Assembly: GCA_903860745.1 (NCBI GenBank)
Contig: CAIORQ010000053.1
Coordinates: forward strand, 1 to 46,313
Length of the DNA stretch: 46,313 nucleotides
From: an uncultured Actinomycetes bacterium
Lineage (GTDB): Bacteria; Actinomycetota; Acidimicrobiia; Acidimicrobiales; RAAP-2
Direction: 5' to 3'
The notes below the pieces were generated by a model. The model saw only the letters and a program-made list of their open reading frames with translations, did no database searches and was not told where the DNA came from. The translations under genes were made by a program, and so were the position numbers. Below, piece by piece: positions 1 to 13,426 of this stretch. Numbering within the stretch: the first letter of the stretch is position 1; each line of letters opens with the position of its first letter.

Positions 1-122
1 GAAAATCGCGTTTGCAAACCAGGAAGGCCGTGACATCAACCCAATCAGTCCAGAGACACCTTTGGCGACGTGAAAAACCGAATTGACACCGATTTCAGAT
101 CACTCGTGAACGATTGGGGGTA
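1..122. other. Foreign segment abutting the broken permease gene
   Basis: These bases are about 50% G+C by direct count, clearly below the neighbouring genes. They begin exactly where the permease reading frame stops resembling its family, near position 120-122. No gene is recognisable in them. An abrupt junction with a composition change is what an insertion-sequence end or a rearrangement breakpoint leaves. I cannot name an element from so short a piece. Confidence 0.4.
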
Positions 123-401
123 GCTGACCGGCTGGCGATAGGTGAGCGAGACACCGAGGTTGCCGCTGAGGACGGCGTGGAGCCACGAGAAGTACTGCTG
201 GAGGGCGGGCTGGCCGACGCCGTAGTACTGGTTCAACGCCGCGATCTGGGCCTTGGTGAGCAGACCCTCGTTGGTGCCCAACGACGCCGAGACGGCGTTA
301 CCGGGGAGCACCCGCAGAATGATGAAGACGATGACCGACGCACCGAAGAGCGTGATGAAAATGCTGAGGACCCGCCGCGCAATGTTCTGAACAAGGTTCA
401 T
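45..401 (-). pseudogene. Truncated DppB/OppB-type ABC transporter permease
   Basis: The first about 93 residues are a normal start of a dipeptide/oligopeptide-type ABC permease: an N-terminal arginine pair, one membrane helix (about residues 11-31), the family motif RVLPGN (30-35), and a GNLGVS stretch (80-85) that leads into the second helix in intact proteins. After the residues RQPVS the frame continues for 25 unrelated residues and stops. Intact members are over 300 residues with about six helices, so the core of the transporter is missing and the product cannot form a pore. It lies 34 bp downstream of the solute-binding protein gene on the same strand, the usual order for this transporter class. 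The rest of the permease, the second permease and the ATPases are not visible here. Confidence 0.75.
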
Positions 402-435: not shown

Positions 436-1995
436 CTACTTGAGCGTCGTGTTCGCGAGGCTCGACAACTGCGTGGTGTTGACCGGCGACAGGGTGAAGC
501 CGTGCACGTTCGGCGACATCACCGCGAAGTCGTAGGAGTCGAACAGCCACACCCACACGGCGTTGCCGGTGAGGTCGTTGTTCAGCTTCTGCCAGTCGGC
601 CTTCTGACCAGCCAGGGTCGAGTTCTCGTCACCCGCCAGCAGTTCGGACTGGAGCGACTTGGAGCTGTAACCCGCCGGGATCGCCAGGCCGGCACCCTTG
701 CCGAAGTAGCGCCCGTACATGATGTAGGGGTCCGGGTCGGCACCGTTCTCGGCGAAGGCCGCCTGGAAGTCACCCTTCAGCCAGTCCTGGATGTAGGCGT
801 TGGCCGCCAGGTTCTGGATGTTCATCGTGATGCCGACGCGAGCGAGCTCGGACTGCATGGCGATGGCCTGAGCGGCCGAGGTCGAGTCGAGGTCGGTCGA
901 GGTGATCGCGGTGAAGGAGAAGCCCTTCGACAGACCCGCGGCCTTGAGGTACTTGCGCGCCTGGGCCAGGTTCTGGGTCGGGCAGATGGCCGACACCGGG
1001 TTGGTCGCGTACGGCCCGAGCGGGACCGGACCAACGACCTTGCCGTCACCGAAGACCGAGTCCTGGAGGATCTGGTTGCGGTTGGTGGCGCAGGCGATGG
1101 CGCGGCGCGCGTTCACGTTGGCCAGGACGCCCTTCTTGTCCTGCAGTTGCAGCACGCGGTAGGACAGGTCCATCACGTGCTGGAAGGTGTAGGACTGGGG
1201 GATCGTGCTGACCACCGTCGGCTGGCTGAGCAGGGCCATCTGAATGGTCCCGGCCTGCAGGGCCGCCGAGATGGACTGCTCGGTCGGGATGGTCTTGAGC
1301 TCGACAGAGCTCAACGCCACCTTGCCGCCCCAGAAGTTCGGGTTGGCCTTCAAGGTGAAGGAGGTCGACGGGACCCAGCTGACGTACTCGAAGGGACCGG
1401 TGCCGTCAGGCTTCTTGGCGATGGTGCCCGAGTTGATGGCGGCCGCCGGCATGATGGCCATGTTGACCGTCGCGAGGCCCTCCAGGACCGACACGTCGGG
1501 GTGGCTCATCGTGAGCACCACGGTGTTGGGGCCCGAGGCGGTGATCTTGTTCACCGATCCGATGAAGGAGGCCGACGGGTCGGCCGTCTTGGCCGCCTGG
1601 GCGCGCTGCAACGACGCCACGACGTCCGCGGAGGTCATCGTGGAGCCGTCGTCGAACTTCACGCCCGTGCGCAGGTTCAAGGTCAGCTCCTTGTTGCCGT
1701 TGGAGAAGGCCCAGCTCGTCGCGAGGTCCGGCACGATCTGCAGGTTCGCGTTCTCCTGGACCAGGGTGTTGTAGATCAACCCGAGGGCCTCGAAGTCGAG
1801 GAAGTTGGTCACGACGTCCGGGTCGGTCTTTTGGACGCTGTTGACGGTGCCGATGACGAGTGACGAGCTCGCGGTGCGTGCGCCCACCGACGCCGACGCG
1901 CTCCCCGAGTCCAGCACGCTGCTCGAGAACACCCCGATCGTGCTGACCATGAGGGCCGCCGAGGCGAGCCCCCGCACTCCAATAGTTCGTTTCAT
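436..1995 (-). CDS. ABC transporter solute-binding protein, peptide/nickel type (SBP family 5)
   Basis: 519 residues. A basic start (MKRTIGVRG), a hydrophobic stretch and an Ala/Ser-rich region to about residue 40 form a signal peptide. I see no lipobox cysteine, so it may be released or held by other means. The mature part has the DppA/OppA-family layout: an early VIGTV strand, the LATSW motif and the FDDGSTMTSADV motif typical of family 5 binding proteins. A strong purine-rich ribosome site (AGAGGGGG) precedes the ATG. It is the first gene of a leftward transporter operon whose permease is broken. Divergence from the GntR/UTRA gene, with shared operator motifs, suggests an amino-sugar or muropeptide ligand, but family 5 proteins also bind peptides and nickel. 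Confidence 0.88.
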   Translation of the reverse strand: MKRTIGVRGLASAALMVSTIGVFSSSVLDSGSASASVGARTASSSLVIGTVNSVQKTDPDVVTNFLDFEALGLIYNTLVQENANLQIVPDLATSWAFSNGNKELTLNLRTGVKFDDGSTMTSADVVASLQRAQAAKTADPSASFIGSVNKITASGPNTVVLTMSHPDVSVLEGLATVNMAIMPAAAINSGTIAKKPDGTGPFEYVSWVPSTSFTLKANPNFWGGKVALSSVELKTIPTEQSISAALQAGTIQMALLSQPTVVSTIPQSYTFQHVMDLSYRVLQLQDKKGVLANVNARRAIACATNRNQILQDSVFGDGKVVGPVPLGPYATNPVSAICPTQNLAQARKYLKAAGLSKGFSFTAITSTDLDSTSAAQAIAMQSELARVGITMNIQNLAANAYIQDWLKGDFQAAFAENGADPDPYIMYGRYFGKGAGLAIPAGYSSKSLQSELLAGDENSTLAGQKADWQKLNNDLTGNAVWVWLFDSYDFAVMSPNVHGFTLSPVNTTQLSSLANTTLK

Positions 1996-2036: not shown

Positions 2037-2065
2037 AGACTAGTGGGGTACTTTGGTCCAGTCAA
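2037..2065 (-). promoter_or_regulatory. Promoter of the solute-binding protein gene
   Basis: On the minus strand, TTGACT (2065-2060) and TAGTCT (2042-2037) are separated by exactly 17 bp. The -35 box is good and the -10 box is weak (3 of 6). The -35 box is contained in the dre-like motif TTGACTGGACCA. Confidence 0.5.
2054..2065 (-). promoter_or_regulatory. dre-like operator 1 (GntR/UTRA regulator)
   Basis: The minus strand reads TTGACTGGACCA. It matches the site over the divergent promoter at 10 of 12 positions and resembles the DasR/NagR operator family, whose consensus centres on TGGTCTAGACCA. It covers the -35 box of the solute-binding protein promoter, so a bound regulator would block RNA polymerase. 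Confidence 0.5.
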
Positions 2066-2148: not shown

Positions 2149-2160
2149 TTGACCAGACCA
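2149..2160 (+). promoter_or_regulatory. dre-like operator 2 (GntR/UTRA regulator)
   Basis: The plus strand reads TTGACCAGACCA, 9 of 12 matches to the DasR-type core TGGTCTAGACCA and 10 of 12 to operator 1. It overlaps the -35 box of the regulator's own promoter, which implies autoregulation. Confidence 0.5.
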
Positions 2161-2177
2161 ATTGGCCTTGGTAGAGT
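2149..2177 (+). promoter_or_regulatory. Promoter of the regulator / amino-sugar operon
   Basis: TTGACC (2149-2154), a 17-bp spacer and TAGAGT (2172-2177) give a plausible sigma-A type promoter with transcription starting near 2184. This start excludes translation beginning at the upstream TTG at 2162 and supports the GTG at 2222. Confidence 0.55.
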
Positions 2178-2221: not shown

Positions 2222-3529
2222 GTGCTCGATGAACCAACAGCGGTATCGGCCGACGCGGTCACCGCGCCGAAGTATCAGAGCATCCACGATGCCCTCCTGA
2301 TCATCATCGAAGGCCTCCCCGCCGGGTCGGCAATGCCCACGGAGCGCGAACTCTGCCAGACCTACGGCGTCTCACGGGCCACCGTGCGCCAGGCGCTGGC
2401 CCAACTCGAGATCGAACAGCGCATCTACCGACGCCAGGGAAAGGGCACCTTCGTCGCCAACGCCAAGATCGAACAGCGCCTCGAACTGATGAGCCACACC
2501 GAGGGCATGCGCGCGCGCGGCATCTCGCCGGGCTCGAAACTCATCGACGTTCGCCGCATCCCCGCGGGCGCCGACATCGGCGCGCGACTCGACCTGGTGC
2601 CCACCGCCGAGGTGCTGCGCATCGAGAGGTTGCGTCTCGCCGACGGCGAACCAATCGCCATCGAGGTGGTCTACTTGAGCGCCGAGCGCTTCGACGGCAT
2701 CACGGCCGCCCTGTCGGACTCCTCCTCCCTCTACCAGCTACTCTCGTCGAACTACGGCGTCGAGCTCGCCTCGGCGGAGGAGACCATCGAGGCCGTGGTG
2801 GCCGAGGGCCGTGAGATGGGCCTGCTGCGCTGCGCCGCCGGCATGCCCCTGTTGATGCTCTCGCGCCGGACGCTGGACACGACGGGCCAGCCCATCGAGT
2901 TCGTCCGTTCGCTCTACCGCGGCGACCGCTACCGCTTTCAGACGGGACTGCGCCGTCCCACCCCGGCGACCCCGGACCTGACCACCCCAGAGAACCCCGT
3001 GCGGGTGAGGCTCGCCGTCGCCAAGGACGCCCCGGGCCTGGCCTCGGTCTTCATCGAGGCCTGGCGCGGCGGTTACCGCGGCATCGTGGCCGACGAGGTC
3101 ATCGACCGCTGGGAGCTCGGCGAGACCACCGCGTGGCTCGCCAGGCTCATCGCCGACAAGTCTGCCCAGACACTGGTGGCCGAGACCGGTCCCGGTCACG
3201 TGGTCGGATTCGTCCGCTTCGGCACCGACCCCGAGGATCCCGCGAACGGACACGTCTTCGCCCTGTACGTGGCGCCCTCGGCGGGCGGACGGGGCGTCGG
3301 TCGACTCCTGCTCGAGAAGGCCCTGACCGTTCTCGACCCCTTGTCCAACCGTCCGGTCACCCTGTGGGTCTTCGAGGCCAACGAGCGAGCGCGCAAGGTC
3401 TACGCCGCCGCGGGCTTCTCCCCCGACGGGGGGCGCCGGGTCGAGGAGGAGTTCGGCGCCCAGGAGATCCGCCTGCGGCGTCCACCCGCGACCACGCCGG
3501 CGGCGCGTCCGGTCGAAGCGCACTCATGA
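2222..3529 (+). CDS. GntR-UTRA transcriptional regulator fused to a GNAT acetyltransferase domain
   Basis: 435 residues from GTG 2222. I chose this start because GGAGGA (2213-2218) precedes it and the likely promoter lies downstream of the earlier TTG. Three domains are visible: a winged helix of GntR type (about residues 20-79, with PTERELCQTYGVSRATVRQA), a UTRA ligand-binding domain (about 95-238), and after a Pro/Thr-rich linker a GNAT domain (about 260-418). The GNAT part has the acetyl-CoA loop GGRGVGRLL (355-363) and the C-terminal NERARKVYAAAGF signature. GntR/UTRA proteins of the DasR/NagR group sense amino-sugar phosphates, which fits the genes that follow. The GNAT extension is unusual. 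It may be a separate enzyme on one chain or an acetyl-CoA-linked sensor. The stop overlaps the next ATG by 4 bp (ATGA). Confidence 0.85.
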   Translation: MLDEPTAVSADAVTAPKYQSIHDALLIIIEGLPAGSAMPTERELCQTYGVSRATVRQALAQLEIEQRIYRRQGKGTFVANAKIEQRLELMSHTEGMRARGISPGSKLIDVRRIPAGADIGARLDLVPTAEVLRIERLRLADGEPIAIEVVYLSAERFDGITAALSDSSSLYQLLSSNYGVELASAEETIEAVVAEGREMGLLRCAAGMPLLMLSRRTLDTTGQPIEFVRSLYRGDRYRFQTGLRRPTPATPDLTTPENPVRVRLAVAKDAPGLASVFIEAWRGGYRGIVADEVIDRWELGETTAWLARLIADKSAQTLVAETGPGHVVGFVRFGTDPEDPANGHVFALYVAPSAGGRGVGRLLLEKALTVLDPLSNRPVTLWVFEANERARKVYAAAGFSPDGGRRVEEEFGAQEIRLRRPPATTPAARPVEAHS

Positions 3530-4629
3530 GCGGACCCGCCGCCGGGCGGCTCAGCCTCGACTTCCCCACGACCAGTTCGCGGCTCTCGTCCGCTCGCCGA
3601 CGCGAGATCGCCCGGGTCCTCGTGGATTCGCTCAGCGAGGGCTTCCCGGCGGGGGCGAGCCTGTCGGTGGTCGACCGTTCCGGCGTTCTCCTGCGCGCCT
3701 GGGGTGGTCTGGCCACGAGGGTCCCCCACGACGAAGCGATCGAGGCCGATACCCTCTACGACCTCGCGTCCCTGACCAAGGTCGTCGTGACCACGACCCT
3801 GGCCCTCTGGCTCGAGCAGGAGGGTCGGTGGCGTCTGTCGGACCGCGTCTCGCGTTGGCTCGAGGACTTCGAACCGGTCGAGCTCACCCTGCGCCAACTC
3901 CTCACCCACACCTCGGGCATCATCGCGCATCGTCCCTTCTTCGAACTGGGACGGCGCCCGGCGGCGATCCGTCGGGCCGTCTTCACCGAAGCGAGGAAGG
4001 CCCGTCCCGACGGCACCGTCCTCTACAGCGACCTCAACTTCATGCTCGCGGGTTGGGCGCTCGAGACCTGCGCCGGTGAGCCCCTCGACCAGCTCTTCGC
4101 GCGCGTGGTGAGCGAGCCCCTGGGGATGAAGGACACGCGCTTTCGTCCCGGCACGCGGCTGCGGCCACGTTGCGCGGCCACGGAACTCGACGGAGACCAG
4201 CGACTGGTCCCCGGCCTGGTGCGCGGCGAGGTCCACGACGGCAACGCCTGGGCCCTCGGAGGAGTCGCCGGTCACGCCGGACTCTTCTCGACCGCCGACG
4301 ACCTCTCACTCTTCGTGGGAGAGCTGCTGGACCCGCGTCGACACCACGTCCTGACACCCACCACCCTGCGGCGGATGACGCGCCCGCAGGCGGGAGCCCA
4401 GCCCGACCTGCGCGCCACCGCCTGGCGACTCGAACCCCAGGGATGGGGGCCCTGGCCCGCGGGAACGATCTGGCACACGGGCTTCACCGGCACCTCGCTC
4501 CTGGTCTCCCCCGGCGCGGACCTCGCGGTGGTCCTGTTGGCCAACGCCATCCACCCGACGCGCGAACTCGACCGCCAGGCGCACTACCGTGCGAGGGTGC
4601 ATCGAGTCCTGTCGAAGGTGATCTCGTGA
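3526..4629 (+). CDS. Serine hydrolase, class C beta-lactamase / PBP4B (YfeW, YbbE) type
   Basis: 367 residues. The penicillin-recognising fold is supported by the active-site motif SLTK (S82, K85), the YSD motif at 167-169 in place of YxN, and HTG at 317-319 in place of KTG. The stretch around GEVHDGNAWALGGVAGHAG (about 234-252) resembles the PBP4B-like enzymes that sit next to murQ in other bacteria, such as E. coli YfeW and B. subtilis YbbE. No signal peptide is apparent, so the protein is probably cytoplasmic. That makes a role on imported muropeptides or peptides more likely than wall synthesis. It is translationally coupled on both sides: ATGA with the regulator and GTGA with the MurQ-NagA gene. 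Substrate unknown; the esterase/peptidase family call is firm, the muropeptide role is inference. Confidence 0.83.
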   Translation: MSGPAAGRLSLDFPTTSSRLSSARRREIARVLVDSLSEGFPAGASLSVVDRSGVLLRAWGGLATRVPHDEAIEADTLYDLASLTKVVVTTTLALWLEQEGRWRLSDRVSRWLEDFEPVELTLRQLLTHTSGIIAHRPFFELGRRPAAIRRAVFTEARKARPDGTVLYSDLNFMLAGWALETCAGEPLDQLFARVVSEPLGMKDTRFRPGTRLRPRCAATELDGDQRLVPGLVRGEVHDGNAWALGGVAGHAGLFSTADDLSLFVGELLDPRRHHVLTPTTLRRMTRPQAGAQPDLRATAWRLEPQGWGPWPAGTIWHTGFTGTSLLVSPGADLAVVLLANAIHPTRELDRQAHYRARVHRVLSKVIS

Positions 4630-6680
4630 GCCGGCCCCACGACGCGGACATCCTCCACCGACTCGGGACCGAGCAAGTGCGCCCGGAGCTCGAGACGCTC
4701 GACCAGTTGTCGGTCGACGACCTGGTCGAGTTGATGTGCCACGACGTGCGACAGGTCCCCGACGCCCTGGCCGGTGCACGCGCCGCGATCACGGCGGCGG
4801 TGTACGGCGCCGTCGCCCAACTCGAGCGCGGCGGTCGGCTGATCTACGTGGGCGCCGGCACCGCCGGACGTCTGGGGATGCTGGACGCGGCCGAAGCGGG
4901 ACCCACCTTCAACGTGGAACCCGGTCAAGTCGTGGGCGTCCTGGCGGGCGGCCTCAACGCCTTCGGCGTTCCCGTGGAGAACGCCGAGGACGACGTCGAG
5001 GGCGGCGCGCGCGCGATCCATGAACTCGGGGTCGACGAGCGCGACTGCGTCATCGGGATCTCGGCCAGTGGTCGAACCCCCTTCGTCCTGGGTGCGTTGG
5101 GCGCGGCCCACGAGGCGGGCGCCGTCACCGTCGGCCTGTCGTGCAACGTCGACACCCCGCTCAGTCGAGCGAGCGACCTCCCCATCGAGGTCGTGGTCGG
5201 TCCCGAGATCATCGCCGGTTCCACCCGGATGAACTCCGGCACCGCCCAGAAGTTGGTGCTCAACATCATCTCCACCGCGGCGATGGTGCGCCTGGGCAAG
5301 ACCTACGGCAACCTGATGGTCGACCTGCGCCCCACCAACGAGAAGCTACGAGATCGCTCACGGCGCATCGTGGCGCGGATCACCGGCGCCGACGACGAAC
5401 GCGTCACCGCGGCCCTCGACGCCTGCCAGTGGCGACCCAAGACGGCCGCCGCCATGATCGTCGGCGACCTCGACGCCGAGACGGCCACGGCGCTCGTCGC
5501 CCGATACGGGGGTCGTCTGCGTCCCGCGCTCGACTCGCTTCGTCAGCCCGGTGCCCCGACCCACCGCGATCCGACCTGGCGACGCCTCGGCGTGGCAGCG
5601 GCCCTGGTCGACGGACAGTTCGTCAGCGGCGACGTGGCGGTCGCCGAGGGGGTGATCGTGGCGGTGGGACTCCCCGGTCCCGGCGAGGGTGTGGCGGTCC
5701 GGGGATTGGTGGACATCCAGGTCAACGGCTACGCGGGCGTGGACCTGCTGAACGCCGAGGTCGACGACGTCCTCGCCATGGGCGAGGCCCTGTGGCGCGA
5801 CGGGGTCGTGGCCTACCAACCCACCTTGATCACCTGCGACCTCGAACGTCTGCGCCACAGTGCCGAGGTGATCTCCGCGGCGCGCCAGCGCACCACCAGC
5901 GGCGCGCGCATCCTCGGCATCCATCTCGAGGGACCCTTCCTCTCACCGCGCCGGGCCGGCACTCACCCCGCGCGACACCTTCGAGGTCCCGACCTCGAAC
6001 TCCTCACGACCCTCCTCGCCACGGGAGAGGTGACGATGATGACGCTGGCCCCCGAACTGCCCGGCGCCCTGGAGCTCATCGATCACTGCGTGGCCCAGGG
6101 CGTGGCCGTGTCCCTGGGTCACAGCGCGACCGACGCGCCGGGCGCGCAGCGGGGCTTCGACCACGGCGCCAGCGCGGTGACCCACCTCTACAACGCCATG
6201 GAGCCGATGAGTGCGCGTTCGCCGGGACTCGCCGGCGTCGCCCTCACCCGACCAGGCGTCACCGTGCAGCTGATCGTCGACGGCGTACACGTCTCGGACG
6301 AGATGGTGCGTCTGGCCTTCGCCGCGGCGCCGTCGCGATGCGTCGTGGTCACCGACGCCATCGCCGCCGCGGGAGTGGACAGCGACGTCGTGCGCCTCGG
6401 CGACGTCACCGTGCACGTCGCCGACGGACAGGCCCGACGCGACGACGGCACCCTCGCGGGTTCGATCGGCCTCCTGCGCGACTCCCTGGTGCGGGTGCGA
6501 GCCTTGGGGGTGGACGCCGTGGACGCCCTGCGCGCGGTGACCCTGCGCCCGACGGCACTGCTCGCCAGTGAGGACGCGGCGTCGCTGCGCGTGGGCGAAG
6601 CGGCGGACGCGCTCATCCTGGACGACGACCTCGTGATCCGCCGTCGCGTGGTGGGCGGCGACGTTCGCCCTTACGACTGA
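4626..6680 (+). CDS. murQ-nagA: Bifunctional MurNAc-6-P etherase / GlcNAc-6-P deacetylase fusion (MurQ-NagA)
   Basis: 684 residues in one uninterrupted frame from GTG 4626, which overlaps the previous stop (GTGA). Residues 1 to about 305 are a complete MurQ: the SIS-domain loop YVGAGTAGRLGMLDAAE, with likely catalytic E90, the second acid E121, and the GISASGRTPF motif (144-153). MurQ splits MurNAc-6-P into GlcNAc-6-P and D-lactate. After a short linker (about 306-320), residues to 684 are a NagA: VDIQVNG (362-368), HLEGPF with metal ligand E435, H499 in LGHS, H520 in THLYNAM, H555 in DGVHVS and catalytic D577 in VTDA. NagA gives GlcN-6-P and acetate. The two halves catalyse consecutive steps, so the fusion would pass GlcNAc-6-P on directly. 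The N-terminal strands of the NagA half look shortened. NagB and a sugar kinase are not in this window. Confidence 0.92.
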   Translation: MSRPHDADILHRLGTEQVRPELETLDQLSVDDLVELMCHDVRQVPDALAGARAAITAAVYGAVAQLERGGRLIYVGAGTAGRLGMLDAAEAGPTFNVEPGQVVGVLAGGLNAFGVPVENAEDDVEGGARAIHELGVDERDCVIGISASGRTPFVLGALGAAHEAGAVTVGLSCNVDTPLSRASDLPIEVVVGPEIIAGSTRMNSGTAQKLVLNIISTAAMVRLGKTYGNLMVDLRPTNEKLRDRSRRIVARITGADDERVTAALDACQWRPKTAAAMIVGDLDAETATALVARYGGRLRPALDSLRQPGAPTHRDPTWRRLGVAAALVDGQFVSGDVAVAEGVIVAVGLPGPGEGVAVRGLVDIQVNGYAGVDLLNAEVDDVLAMGEALWRDGVVAYQPTLITCDLERLRHSAEVISAARQRTTSGARILGIHLEGPFLSPRRAGTHPARHLRGPDLELLTTLLATGEVTMMTLAPELPGALELIDHCVAQGVAVSLGHSATDAPGAQRGFDHGASAVTHLYNAMEPMSARSPGLAGVALTRPGVTVQLIVDGVHVSDEMVRLAFAAAPSRCVVVTDAIAAAGVDSDVVRLGDVTVHVADGQARRDDGTLAGSIGLLRDSLVRVRALGVDAVDALRAVTLRPTALLASEDAASLRVGEAADALILDDDLVIRRRVVGGDVRPYD

Positions 6681-10480: not shown

Positions 10481-10739
10481 GGGCACTCCCGGCGCCCGGA
10501 CCGCGGGGGCCGAGGTCACAGGGACGCGGCACGCGCCCAAGATCGACGTGTCCGTCTGGACCTCACTCGTTCACCTCGTCGTCAAGGAGATTTCATCTCA
10601 TCTCCGCGTCCGGGGGCCCGACGGGGCCTATGGTGAATCGGTGGTCCACGGCCACGCAGTATCGGCTATAGTCGTACCCCCTGTCCATCCGAGCGAACCG
10701 ACTCACTACCGACGCTCCCTCCACGAGAGGATGCCGACC
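10481..10739. other. Intergenic region before the diaminobutyrate pair
   Basis: No gene seen. A TATAGT hexamer (10667-10672) is a fair -10 box for the next gene, but no clear -35 box lies 16-18 bp upstream. A 6-bp inverted repeat (GGAGAT / ATCTCC, 10587-10606) is present without a T-tract. Confidence 0.4.
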
Positions 10740-11984
10740 ATGAACGCCTTCGAGGAACTCGAATCGAACGTACGGTATTACTGTCGCCGTTGGCCCGCGG
10801 TCTTCGCCACCGCGTCGGGCAGCACCATCACCGACGAGGACGGTGTCGAGTACCTCGACTTCTTCGCCGGCGCCGGAGCCCTCTCCTACGGCCACAACAA
10901 CCCGCTGTTCGTGGACCTGGCGATCGAGCACCTGCGCTCGGGTCGTCTCCTGCACTCCCTGGACACCTTCACCGCGGAGAAGCGTGACTTCCTCGAGACG
11001 ATCGAACGCAACATCCTCGCCCCTCGTCAGCTCGACATGGTGGTCCAGACGGTGGGTCCGACCGGGGCCACCGCCGTCGAGGCCGCCCTGCAACTGGCCC
11101 AGCGCCTCACCGGTCACCGCGCCGTCGTGGGCTTCGAGGGTGGCTACCACGGCATGAGCTACCGCGCCGCCTCGATCTCGGCCTCGATGGCCGGTCGCGA
11201 GACCAGCGCGCACCTCAAGGACTTCGTGGCCCTGCCCTACGTCAAGCACGTCACCGACGCCGACGTCGCCCTGCTCGAGCAGACCCTGCGCACCCCGGTC
11301 AACGGCCAGGCCATCGGTGTCGTGATCATCGAGCCCACCCAGGGCGAAGGTGGTGCGCGGGCCTTCGACCCGGCCTACCTCAGCGCCGTGCGCCGGATCA
11401 CCCGGGAGCTGGGGATCCTGGTCATCGCCGACGAGATCCAGGCCGGCGTGGGCCGCACCGGTCCCTTCTTCTCCTTCGAGGGCTCCCAGCTCGACCCCGA
11501 CATCATCTGCGTGTCGAAGTCGATCAGTGGCCTGGGCCTGCCCATGGCCATCAACCTCGTGCGTCGCGACCTCGACACCTGGAACCCCGGTGAGTTCACC
11601 GGCACCTTCCGCGGCAACAACCTGGCCTTCGCGACCTCCGCGGCGATGATGAACGCCTACTGGAGCGACTCGACCCTGGAGAAGGACACCGAGCAGCACG
11701 GTCTCACGGTGCGCGCGGCACTCGAGGCCATGGCCGACGCCTTCGGCGCCGGTCGCTTCGACGTGCGCGGCAACGGCCTGCTCTGCGGACTCGACGTGCG
11801 CGACACCGAACTGGCCGCGGCCATCTCGCGCCACGCCTTCGAACGCCGGCTCATCGTCGAGACCTGCGGCGCCGGCGACACCATCGTGAAGATCCTCGCA
11901 CCACTCGTGATCGAGCCCGGGCAGCTCGACGACGGTCTGAACCGACTGGCCTCGTCGGTCGAACAGGCCACCGCCGCACGTTGA
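10740..11984 (+). CDS. dat: Diaminobutyrate--2-oxoglutarate aminotransferase (EctB/Dat type)
   Basis: 414 residues from ATG 10740, with GAGAGG 9 bp upstream. A class III PLP aminotransferase: the phosphate-binding GPTGATAVE stretch (106-114), GGYHGMSYRA (134-143), DEIQAGVGRTG with D231, and the Schiff-base lysine K260 in CVSKSISG. The overall sequence, including the opening FEELESNVRYYCRRWP and the FFAGAGALSYGHN motif, is of the EctB/Dat kind that makes L-2,4-diaminobutyrate from aspartate semialdehyde and glutamate. No ectA or ectC follows, so this is not an ectoine cluster. Instead the next gene, overlapping by 4 bp, is a diaminobutyrate decarboxylase-type protein. The pair therefore most likely makes 1,3-diaminopropane. 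Confidence 0.85.
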   Translation: MNAFEELESNVRYYCRRWPAVFATASGSTITDEDGVEYLDFFAGAGALSYGHNNPLFVDLAIEHLRSGRLLHSLDTFTAEKRDFLETIERNILAPRQLDMVVQTVGPTGATAVEAALQLAQRLTGHRAVVGFEGGYHGMSYRAASISASMAGRETSAHLKDFVALPYVKHVTDADVALLEQTLRTPVNGQAIGVVIIEPTQGEGGARAFDPAYLSAVRRITRELGILVIADEIQAGVGRTGPFFSFEGSQLDPDIICVSKSISGLGLPMAINLVRRDLDTWNPGEFTGTFRGNNLAFATSAAMMNAYWSDSTLEKDTEQHGLTVRAALEAMADAFGAGRFDVRGNGLLCGLDVRDTELAAAISRHAFERRLIVETCGAGDTIVKILAPLVIEPGQLDDGLNRLASSVEQATAAR

Positions 11985-13426
11985 GCGGTCCCGGCGACTG
12001 GCGCGACCTCTTCGTCGCCACCGACGAACGAGGACTACGCACCCTCTCGGAGGCGGCGGCGAAGGCCGTCGACTCCCTGGACCACGCGTCGAGCGGTCCG
12101 CGATCGAGCGACACGCCGTCTCAGTTGCGCGAACGCGTCCGCGCCCTCGAGGTCTGTCCCGTCGAGGGGGTGGCCCTGGACCGGGTACTCGACGAGTTCG
12201 GCCGGGTGCTCTGGGCCCACGCGGTGCGACCCTCGCACGTCGCCAGCGTCGCGCACCTGCACCCGCCGAGCGTGGTGCCGGCGGTGGTCACCGAGCTCGC
12301 CATCTCCGCGTCGAACCAGTCGATGGACTCCTGGGACCAGTCGCCCGCCGCCACCGAGATGGAACTGCATCTCATGGACTTCCTGGCCCGGCGCCTCGGT
12401 CTGGCGGAGGTCGCGTCGGGAGTGATGACCTCGGGCGGCACCGCCTCCAACGTGCTCGGGCTCACCTTGTCGCGCTCGTGGGCGGCGGCCAAGCTCGGCG
12501 TCGACGTCTTGAAGGCCGGGTTGCCCCCCGAGGCCCGCCGGTGGCGCCTGGTCACGTCGGACCAGGCCCACTTCTCCGTCCAACGAGCCGCCGCGCAGCT
12601 CGGGCTGGGGCGTGACGCCGTGGTGAACGTGGCGACCGACCGGACCGGGGCCATGGACGTCGACGCCCTCGACGCGACGCTGTCCCAACTCGACGAGGCG
12701 GGCCTGGTCCCCATCGCGATCTCGGCCACCGCCGGCACCACCGACCTCGGCGCCATCGACCCCCTGGCCCAGATCGCCGAGCGAGCCCGACGTCGGGGCG
12801 CCTGGTTCCACGTCGACGCCGCCGTGGCCGGGGCCTTCGTGATGTCCGAGGCCCTGCGCCCCCGCCTGGCGGGGATCGAGGCGGCGGACTCGGTCACCAT
12901 CGACTTCCACAAGTTGTGGTGGCAGCCCTTCAACGCCTCGGCTCTGGTCGTTCGCGACGTCGAGCGCTTCGACCTCCTGCGGGTCCGCTCGGACTACCTG
13001 GACCGCGGCGACGAGCTCGACGGCATGGTCAACCTGGTGGGTCGGTCCCTGGACACGTCGAGGCGATTCGACGCCGCCAAGGTCGTGGCCGCCCTTCGCA
13101 CCATCGGAACCTCCACCTTCGCCGAGATGATCGAGAGCCTGGTCGAACTGACCGTCTACGCGGCCCGGAGGATCGAGGCCAGCGAGGTCCTCGCCCTGGT
13201 GGCTCCGGTCTCGGCGGTGAGCGTCGTCTTCGACGCACCGGGCCATGACGCGGACGAGTTGCGTCGGGTCCAGCAGGGGCTATTGGCGCGTGGGGAGATG
13301 ATCCTCGGGCGCACGGTGATCAAGGGACGCGCCGCCCTCAAGTTCACCTTCATGAACCCGCTGGCCACTCGCGCCGACGTCGACGAGTTGATCGCCGTCG
13401 TCACCCGGGGCTTCGTCCCCGGCTGA
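11981..13426 (+). CDS. ddc: L-2,4-diaminobutyrate decarboxylase-type PLP enzyme
   Basis: 481 residues from TTG 11981, which overlaps the previous stop (TTGA). No alternative start fits the coupling better. Group II PLP decarboxylase features are clear: SGGTASN (151-157), HVDAAVAGA with H277 and D279, and the PLP lysine K311 in IDFHKLWWQP. The aromatic DFHKLWWQP motif is like that of diaminobutyrate decarboxylases rather than glutamate decarboxylases. Together with the upstream aminotransferase it would convert diaminobutyrate to 1,3-diaminopropane, a polyamine and siderophore precursor. Tyrosine or aspartate decarboxylase activity cannot be excluded from sequence alone. The N-terminus up to about residue 50 is variable and may be disordered. 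Confidence 0.82.
   Translation: MSGPGDWRDLFVATDERGLRTLSEAAAKAVDSLDHASSGPRSSDTPSQLRERVRALEVCPVEGVALDRVLDEFGRVLWAHAVRPSHVASVAHLHPPSVVPAVVTELAISASNQSMDSWDQSPAATEMELHLMDFLARRLGLAEVASGVMTSGGTASNVLGLTLSRSWAAAKLGVDVLKAGLPPEARRWRLVTSDQAHFSVQRAAAQLGLGRDAVVNVATDRTGAMDVDALDATLSQLDEAGLVPIAISATAGTTDLGAIDPLAQIAERARRRGAWFHVDAAVAGAFVMSEALRPRLAGIEAADSVTIDFHKLWWQPFNASALVVRDVERFDLLRVRSDYLDRGDELDGMVNLVGRSLDTSRRFDAAKVVAALRTIGTSTFAEMIESLVELTVYAARRIEASEVLALVAPVSAVSVVFDAPGHDADELRRVQQGLLARGEMILGRTVIKGRAALKFTFMNPLATRADVDELIAVVTRGFVPG

Follow-up and report, generated by a model that had tools for sequence, protein, structure and literature searches.

We analysed a 46,313-nucleotide stretch of DNA from an uncultured Actinomycetes bacterium of the order Acidimicrobiales (GenBank assembly GCA_903860745.1, contig CAIORQ010000053.1), hereafter the window. 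On its forward strand, one open frame appears to encode two enzymes of cell-wall recycling: MurQ, the etherase that acts on N-acetylmuramic acid 6-phosphate (MurNAc-6-P), followed by NagA, the deacetylase that acts on N-acetylglucosamine-6-phosphate (GlcNAc-6-P). An earlier note, made from the letters of the sequence, had proposed that both enzymes are complete, catalyse consecutive reactions and are fused in one polypeptide. As stated there, the frame runs without a stop: it opens with GTG at 4626, ends with TGA at 6680 and contains no internal stops. Its parts are as follows.

4626..6680, + strand: murQ-nagA fusion gene, 684 amino acids; the GTG start lies inside a GTGA overlap with the preceding stop
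4626..5540, + strand: MurQ domain (MurNAc-6-P etherase), residues 1-305, delimited by TIGR00274, PRK05441 and superposition on 4s12
5541..5576, + strand: linker, residues 306-317, of which 309-316 are predicted to be disordered; length and sequence vary among seven fused proteins
5577..6677, + strand: NagA domain (N-acetylglucosamine-6-phosphate deacetylase), residues 318-684, delimited by TIGR00221, superposition on 2vhl and comparison of the junction

Occurrence of the fused gene

The fusion was found in seven species-level genomes: that of the window (G000), G009, G030, G048, G058 and G457 of the same genus, and G558, an Acidimicrobiaceae metagenome-assembled genome (MAG). A search of 100 relatives, G000 included, returned four further full-length matches, all from the genus (G009, G058, G030 and G048; 5 of its 61 rows carry the fusion). 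A family-wide search of 172 genomes added G457 (6 of 172 fused), and a scan of public contigs located the fusion on L033, which belongs to the Acidimicrobiaceae MAG G558. All seven proteins are free of stops from start to end, and the six others are 54-72% identical to that of the window.

An assembly or frameshift artefact that joined two genes was considered, the window coming from a fragmented genome of 110 contigs. However, the same stop-free fusion recurs in six other assemblies, at that level of identity and with differing linker lengths. The artefact was rejected because the same error in seven assemblies is not credible, and we give it a negligible chance. The earlier note had looked to related genomes for the same domain order; its uninterrupted presence in six further species-level genomes speaks against both a sequencing error and relatives that uniformly keep separate genes.

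The fusion was found in 2 of 395 genomes of a class sample, in which about two candidates were scored per genome. In a phylum sample of 396, only the window's genome showed the MurQ-NagA order among the matches listed, and G622 showed the reverse; others may have been missed in this sample. Outside the fused group, murQ and nagA were separate genes among the matches listed, apart from the G622 reverse fusion. Among plasmids, 281 records matched, in three of which one place covers 80% of the query, with murQ and nagA annotated separately there. A second MurQ or NagA was not seen in the seven fused genomes, with all candidates scored in six (G000, G009, G030 and G558; G058, at E 0.001; G457, at E 1e-20) and 11 of 17 in G048; the extra weak matches were SIS stretches of 21-26 bits. 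By these comparisons, the fusion is real, conserved and rare.

Two complete halves and their junction

The MurQ half passes the NCBIfam model TIGR00274 (313.2 bits against a cut-off of 302, residues 15-303) and also PRK05441 (368.9 against 168) and PRK12570 (324.3 against 255); by the curated models, a full MurQ spans residues 11-305. The second half passes TIGR00221 (238.6 bits against 225.65, residues 358-678), and it was assigned as NagA because of this NCBIfam model, its solved NagA relatives (E down to 4.5e-50) and its fold.

The active-site residues named in the earlier note (E90 and E121 for MurQ; E435, H499, H520, H555 and D577 for NagA) proved correct and are unchanged in all seven fused proteins. 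E90 and E121 align with glutamates in all three solved MurQ sequences compared, and we take them to be the equivalents of E. coli MurQ E83 and E114, hence catalytic. The same five NagA residues occur in all five of the solved NagA sequences listed and presumably correspond to E. coli NagA E131, H195, H216, H251 and D273, that is, the metal ligands and the catalytic aspartate. Ratios of nonsynonymous to synonymous substitution (dN/dS) were 0.08-0.41 for the MurQ half and 0.08-0.46 for the NagA half (13 of 21 pairs listed per domain), values that are rough where dS exceeds 1. By this measure, both halves are under purifying selection.

The first half might instead be a NagS-like GlcNAc-6-P dehydratase, in which case the pair would form a NagS-NagA shunt. 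NagS is a Streptomyces enzyme related to MurQ that works with NagA, according to PMC12680351 (this and the other papers below are cited from partial text). However, the same source limits NagS to Streptomycetaceae, in a clade apart from MurQ; the first half exceeds the cut-offs of three MurQ models; and AnmK lies in the same cluster (see below). Its best solved relatives are MurQs (E down to 7.5e-70), and no NagS chain matched at E 1e-5 in the copy of the PDB searched, in which the presence of NagS was unchecked. We consider such a shunt extremely unlikely.

An AlphaFold2 model, built from an alignment of 52 rows (7 fused proteins, 17 of 21 separate MurQs and 28 of 56 separate NagAs), comprises two confident domains, with a mean predicted local distance difference test (pLDDT) of 94.6 and a predicted template modelling score (pTM) of 0.65. 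With VIA-align, model residues 6-302 superpose on Yersinia MurQ 4s12 (Z 40.6, 0.9 Å over 295 residues) and residues 317-684 on Bacillus NagA 2vhl (Z 50.4, 2.5 Å over 368 residues). Both domains are thus complete by curated models and by end-to-end superposition, as had been claimed, so that a complete MurQ followed by a complete NagA in one frame would join the enzymes of consecutive reactions. A truncated NagA, suggested by the start of the TIGR00221 match at profile position 55, was ruled out by alignment from the first residues of solved NagAs: residue 317 falls on residue 3 of 2vhl, 318 on residue 1 of 2p53 and 319 on residue 1 of 1o12. Separate relatives that start near the same place also contradict it. 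The sole run with pLDDT below 50 is residues 309-316. With this disordered linker and the pTM of 0.65, the model therefore predicts neither a tunnel nor a fixed mutual orientation, and the protein is best described from it as two complete parts joined by a flexible tether.

Sequences at the junction mark where the NagA part begins. It opens with RRLGV, and several separate relatives open with M-R-L-G-V. Nine separate NagA N-termini were compared: four (L062, L064, L066 and L072) read M-R-L-G-V or M-R-R-L-G-V, L061 reads V-R-L-G-V, L006 and L007 have RRL(S/G)V with no preceding methionine and undefined true starts, and L015 and L098 are unlike these. All seven fused proteins carry (R/Q)-R-L-G-V after a W, S, V or T residue, and no ATG stands before this motif in any of the seven genes. 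The linker between matched motifs is 15-32 residues long across the seven, and its sequence is unconserved.

The earlier note had also seen no internal start signal at the junction, and this held for the most part. Besides the lack of ATG, ribosome pairing is weak for the window's in-frame start candidates between residues 297 and 343 (-6.0 kcal/mol at best), by a measure that is itself weak: the window's own start scores -6.9, near the background 10th percentile of -7.0, and that of G009 scores -1.2. On the other hand, two GTG codons at residues 345 and 347 of the window pair strongly, in a Shine-Dalgarno-like manner (-13.9 and -15.0), and GTG occurs immediately before RRLGV in G457 (-5.8) and one codon upstream of it in G048 (+0.7). 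Such codons could yield free NagA in addition to the fused form. However, NagA would lose its first strands with a start at 345 or 347, the codon in G457 is absent from the other six genes, and the strongest internal pairing in the six besides the window is -7.1. Additional free NagA from an internal start is thus very unlikely.

Trees, overlapping gene pairs and a reverse fusion

We constructed trees from 35 MurQ and 42 NagA rows (28 and 63 in earlier sets), dropping duplicate loci and segments below set lengths. In both trees a single branch set the fused proteins apart from all the others, with support of 99/93 for MurQ and 100/99 for NagA (100/98 and 100/99 in the earlier sets). Both trees therefore agree with a single origin, and one fusion event is the simplest account. 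The closest separate NagAs in the tree are those of G415 and G664 and one of two copies in G935; by score order, this G935 copy ends an operon that reads SBP5-permease-permease-MurQ-AnmK-ATPase-ATPase-NagA. The MurQ tree leaves the sister of the fused clade without resolution. The separate MurQs of the family itself (g210) were set aside as a source of the fused form, as these sit in another supported group (97/97; 100/100).

In family f116, from another part of the phylum, a murQ match lies directly upstream of a nagA match in 18 of 103 genomes. Nine such pairs were inspected at the DNA level (L149, L194 and L196-L202). In each, the end of murQ (TGA) and the start of nagA share 4 nucleotides (ATGA in seven, GTGA in two), the two genes being in differing frames. 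A SIS gene related to NagB-II/GlmS comes next in eight, and in the ninth (L196) the contig ends inside nagA. Overlapping pairs of this kind could be the obvious raw material from which such a fusion arises. Descent from the f116 pairs is not claimed, the closest NagAs in the tree being other genes and the MurQ sister being undecided by the tree.

These pairs bear on whether the fusion is simply an expression device that fixes a 1:1 ratio and saves one translation start, with no kinetic effect. The ATGA/GTGA overlaps in all nine are a usual sign of coupled translation, and the unconserved linker also fits such a device. However, coupled translation is already near-equal, so that fusion would add little. 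We hold this account to be possible, though we lean against it.

The reverse arrangement was found in G622, of family f90, where NagA (226434-227609) precedes MurQ (227688-228554) in one 815-codon frame (G622:C2:226434-228557; L148:6453-8558), with a nagB-like gene directly upstream as read from the sequence. This fusion occurs in one of 39 genomes of the family and in a single assembly. It looks like an independent case because its NagA belongs to another clade (98/96).

The earlier note had suggested that the fusion could channel GlcNAc-6-P. True channelling would mean a direct hand-over of the intermediate between the MurQ and NagA sites, with no release into the cytoplasm. Consecutive reactions within one chain fit this suggestion, and the reverse fusion and the nine overlapping pairs suggest repeated selection for co-production or closeness. 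However, the linker is predicted to be disordered and varies from 15 to 32 residues between the matched motifs, a pTM of 0.65 fixes no orientation of the domains, and the occurrence of either order speaks against one specific docking geometry. We therefore regard true channelling as unlikely.

MurQ and NagA are both homo-oligomers. On a more speculative view, which we consider improbable, the fusion would build closed or extended assemblies with several MurQ and NagA sites around a shared space, and closeness would have been selected more than once. If so, such assemblies would consume GlcNAc-6-P, and perhaps the reactive unsaturated intermediate of MurQ, before escape, and both fusion orders would follow. 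The MurQ-NagA fusion, the overlapping gene pairs and the apparently independent reverse case form a natural experiment for asking what favours fusion at GlcNAc-6-P.

The surrounding cluster and a proposed role

To place the fusion in context, its neighbours in the window are listed here; ABC denotes ATP-binding cassette.

3526..4629, + strand: serine hydrolase of beta-lactamase/PBP4B-like fold (PF00144, 189.3 bits), with a 4-nucleotide overlap with the genes on either side
2222..3529, + strand: GntR-UTRA regulator fused to a GNAT acetyltransferase domain (PF00392, PF07702, PF00583), a neighbour in 7 of 7 fused loci
436..1995, - strand: substrate-binding protein of a peptide-type ABC importer (SBP_bac_5; PF00496, 244.2 bits)
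1..401, - strand: importer permease 1, cut by the contig end, 72% identical to the L053 permease over its first 94 amino acids
6700..9636, + strand: FAD/4Fe-4S 2-hydroxyacid dehydrogenase (D-lactate dehydrogenase/YdiJ/GlcD-GlcF type), 19 nucleotides after the fusion gene

The importer arm diverges from the regulator, hydrolase and fusion genes. In relatives, permease 1 is followed by permease 2, AnmK, ATPase 1 and ATPase 2; AnmK occupies this place between permease 2 and ATPase 1 in G009, G058, G030 and G457, and that of G030 passes NCBIfam PRK09585.2-6 (516.4 against 440 bits). Within the reach of the contigs and fetched stretches, the importer genes, AnmK, GntR-GNAT protein, serine hydrolase and fusion stand in matching order in all seven loci. 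The hydrolase, which adjoins the fusion in each of them, has no obvious signal peptide as read from its sequence; the regulator frame is open from 2162, with a likely start, again as read, at a GTG at 2222 behind GGAGG. This regulator is a second fusion in the cluster, found in all seven fused loci and in G510.

The genome of the window has its importer-AnmK arm on two contigs: C53 starts inside permease 1, and C19 inside AnmK, followed by two ATPases (G000:C19:1-2017). The two are probably ends of one broken cluster; they were compared, not joined, and the piece between them was not found in this genome. AnmK occurs in 11 of the 172 family genomes: all six that are fused, three with a separate MurQ (G510, G512 and G513), and G012 and G056. 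The last two have the importer-AnmK arm, and no fusion was found elsewhere in either; they count neither way because their contigs end ahead of the fusion's place.

Further enzymes accompany the cluster. The dehydrogenase follows the fusion in four of seven loci (G000, G009, G058 and G030), and a GH3 enzyme is present in all seven fused genomes. SIS enzymes related to NagB-II, under its cut-off (163.5, 178.0 and 175.0 against 430 in the three tested), are encoded immediately after the fusion gene in G048. In G009, G030 and G058 they come after the dehydrogenase, on the opposite strand, and in G000 they are at a separate place. An MR_MLE enzyme, nearest to L-Ala-D/L-Glu epimerase models and likewise under the cut-off (155.7 and 154.4 against 500), is encoded after the fusion gene in G558 and, in G457, on the far side of the importer arm. 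By its gene content, this is a divergent muropeptide-salvage cluster, and the context is the strongest functional evidence for the fusion. In several other actinobacterial lineages murQ adjoins anmK (L134, L136, L137, L151-L153, L193 and L195), with a murQ-anmK-nagA row in L151-L153.

Putative operator sites lie between the two arms:

2149..2161, + strand: TTGACYRGACCAA site at the right-hand promoter, overlapping its -35 region
2053..2065, - strand: second TTGACYRGACCAA site, at the left-hand (divergent) promoter
2157..2172, + strand: palindrome ACCAA-N6-TTGGT, at the right-hand promoter

The 13-mer is exact at both divergent promoters in five of eight loci (the window, G009, G058, G030 and G056). 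In G558 there are two sites with one mismatch each, both on the minus strand; G048 has a single site with two mismatches, and G457 has none even when two are allowed. The palindrome is exact in six of the eight loci (these five plus G048); the G457 copy deviates at one position, and G558 lacks it. As read from the sequence, the sites overlap a TTGAC -35 element, with a TAG-type -10 element about 17 bp further on. Mononucleotide shuffling predicts an exact 13-mer in 0.0002 of regions like these, a figure that is indicative only because both motifs were picked after the regions had been viewed and five loci are close relatives. The paired sites and palindrome (1996-2172) may represent the operator of the GntR protein.

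Elsewhere in the window, at 10548-13426, a diaminobutyrate aminotransferase-like gene (over the PRK09264 cut-off) lies beside an L-2,4-diaminobutyrate decarboxylase-like gene (under the cut-off), a pair that perhaps forms a 1,3-diaminopropane route.

Together, these observations make it very likely, in our view, that the fusion is one bifunctional enzyme converting MurNAc-6-P to glucosamine-6-phosphate (GlcN-6-P), central to a peptidoglycan-salvage regulon, fused once, and beneficial through equal supply and closeness of its two activities. The fusion, its completeness, conservation and context, and trees agreeing with one origin are read from the sequence directly; both activities, the substrates of the importer and dehydrogenase, and the benefit of fusion are what we infer. 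In the proposed route, the peptide-type ABC importer would take in (anhydro)muropeptides and AnmK would produce MurNAc-6-P. The MurQ half would convert this to GlcNAc-6-P and D-lactate, and the NagA half would then yield GlcN-6-P and acetate. GlcN-6-P would be consumed by the NagB-II-like SIS enzymes or by cell-wall synthesis, and the neighbouring FAD/FeS dehydrogenase, whose assignment to this step is weak, may oxidise the D-lactate released by MurQ. The fusion would have arisen once in the group, by the joining of murQ to nagA at the start of nagA. The likely gain is that the two activities would be equal in supply and close, with GlcNAc-6-P kept low; the flexible linker points to closeness and a fixed stoichiometry rather than to a tunnel. 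With no further MurQ or NagA seen in these genomes, GlcNAc-6-P from other sources may likewise have the fusion as its sole route.

Several points weigh against this reading. The fusion is rare, as the family and class counts show, and the missing second copies are no proof because the genomes are MAG-like (84-97% complete where stated). The NagA half misses the narrower, E. coli-type NagA model PRK11170 (195.7 against 483) and matches no Pfam amidohydrolase family at E 0.001, a search in which Pfam detects the SIS parts of MurQ. In G048 and G558 the dehydrogenase does not adjoin the fusion (in G457 the contig ends at this place), and its best NCBIfam match, YdiJ, scores 453.9 bits, far under the cut-off of 1350. 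Finally, the window's genome shows AnmK only as a fragment at the edge of a contig.

Published work gives a setting for the proposed gain. GlcNAc-6-P is a branch-point metabolite that feeds a toxicity pathway in Streptomyces (PMC12680351). In Caulobacter, no strain lacking both NagAs could be obtained, although loss of the kinase was tolerated (PMC13046382). NagA is described as a checkpoint of recycling in mycobacteria (PMC12617635), and the products of MurQ are stated in PMC6262408. Pressure to keep GlcNAc-6-P low may have driven the fusion.

A MurQ-NagA fusion was described in none of the papers that the literature searches listed, at title and abstract level and outside subscription papers and sequence-database annotations, and a search on this actinobacterial class together with peptidoglycan sugars returned no paper. 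As far as the literature searched and the sampled genomes show, the architecture is new, and both enzymes are known. It physically joins two textbook steps of cell-wall recycling, and with it a compact muropeptide-salvage cluster comes to light in a group of uncultured actinobacteria.

The cluster shares its chemistry and enzymes with the E. coli-type AnmK/MurQ/NagA route for MurNAc recycling (PMC13041923 and PMC13046382); in the text of these sources MurQ and NagA are treated as separate proteins, whereas here they are joined, and import in the window is probably by a peptide-type ABC system. Solved MurQs (TIGR00274; 4s12, 4lzj, 4m0d and 1nri) resemble the first half in the whole domain, the catalytic glutamates and a fold within 0.9-1.2 Å, but they are separate proteins of about 300 amino acids, whereas MurQ here is an N-terminal half. 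Solved NagAs (TIGR00221; 2vhl, 1o12, 6fv3 and 2p50) share the metal and catalytic residues and the barrel with its side sheet (root-mean-square deviation 2.3-3.1 Å); unlike them, the NagA of the fusion has no ATG of its own and is attached to the end of MurQ through a linker some 12 residues long. The overlapping pairs of f116 (for example in G853, G924 and G938) have the same order, murQ then nagA, and their nagA starts M-R/K-L-G/D-V/I where the fusion has RRLGV, but they encode two proteins, with a stop/start overlap of ATGA or GTGA. The NagA-MurQ protein of G622 unites the same two enzymes in one frame, in the opposite order and with a NagA of another clade.

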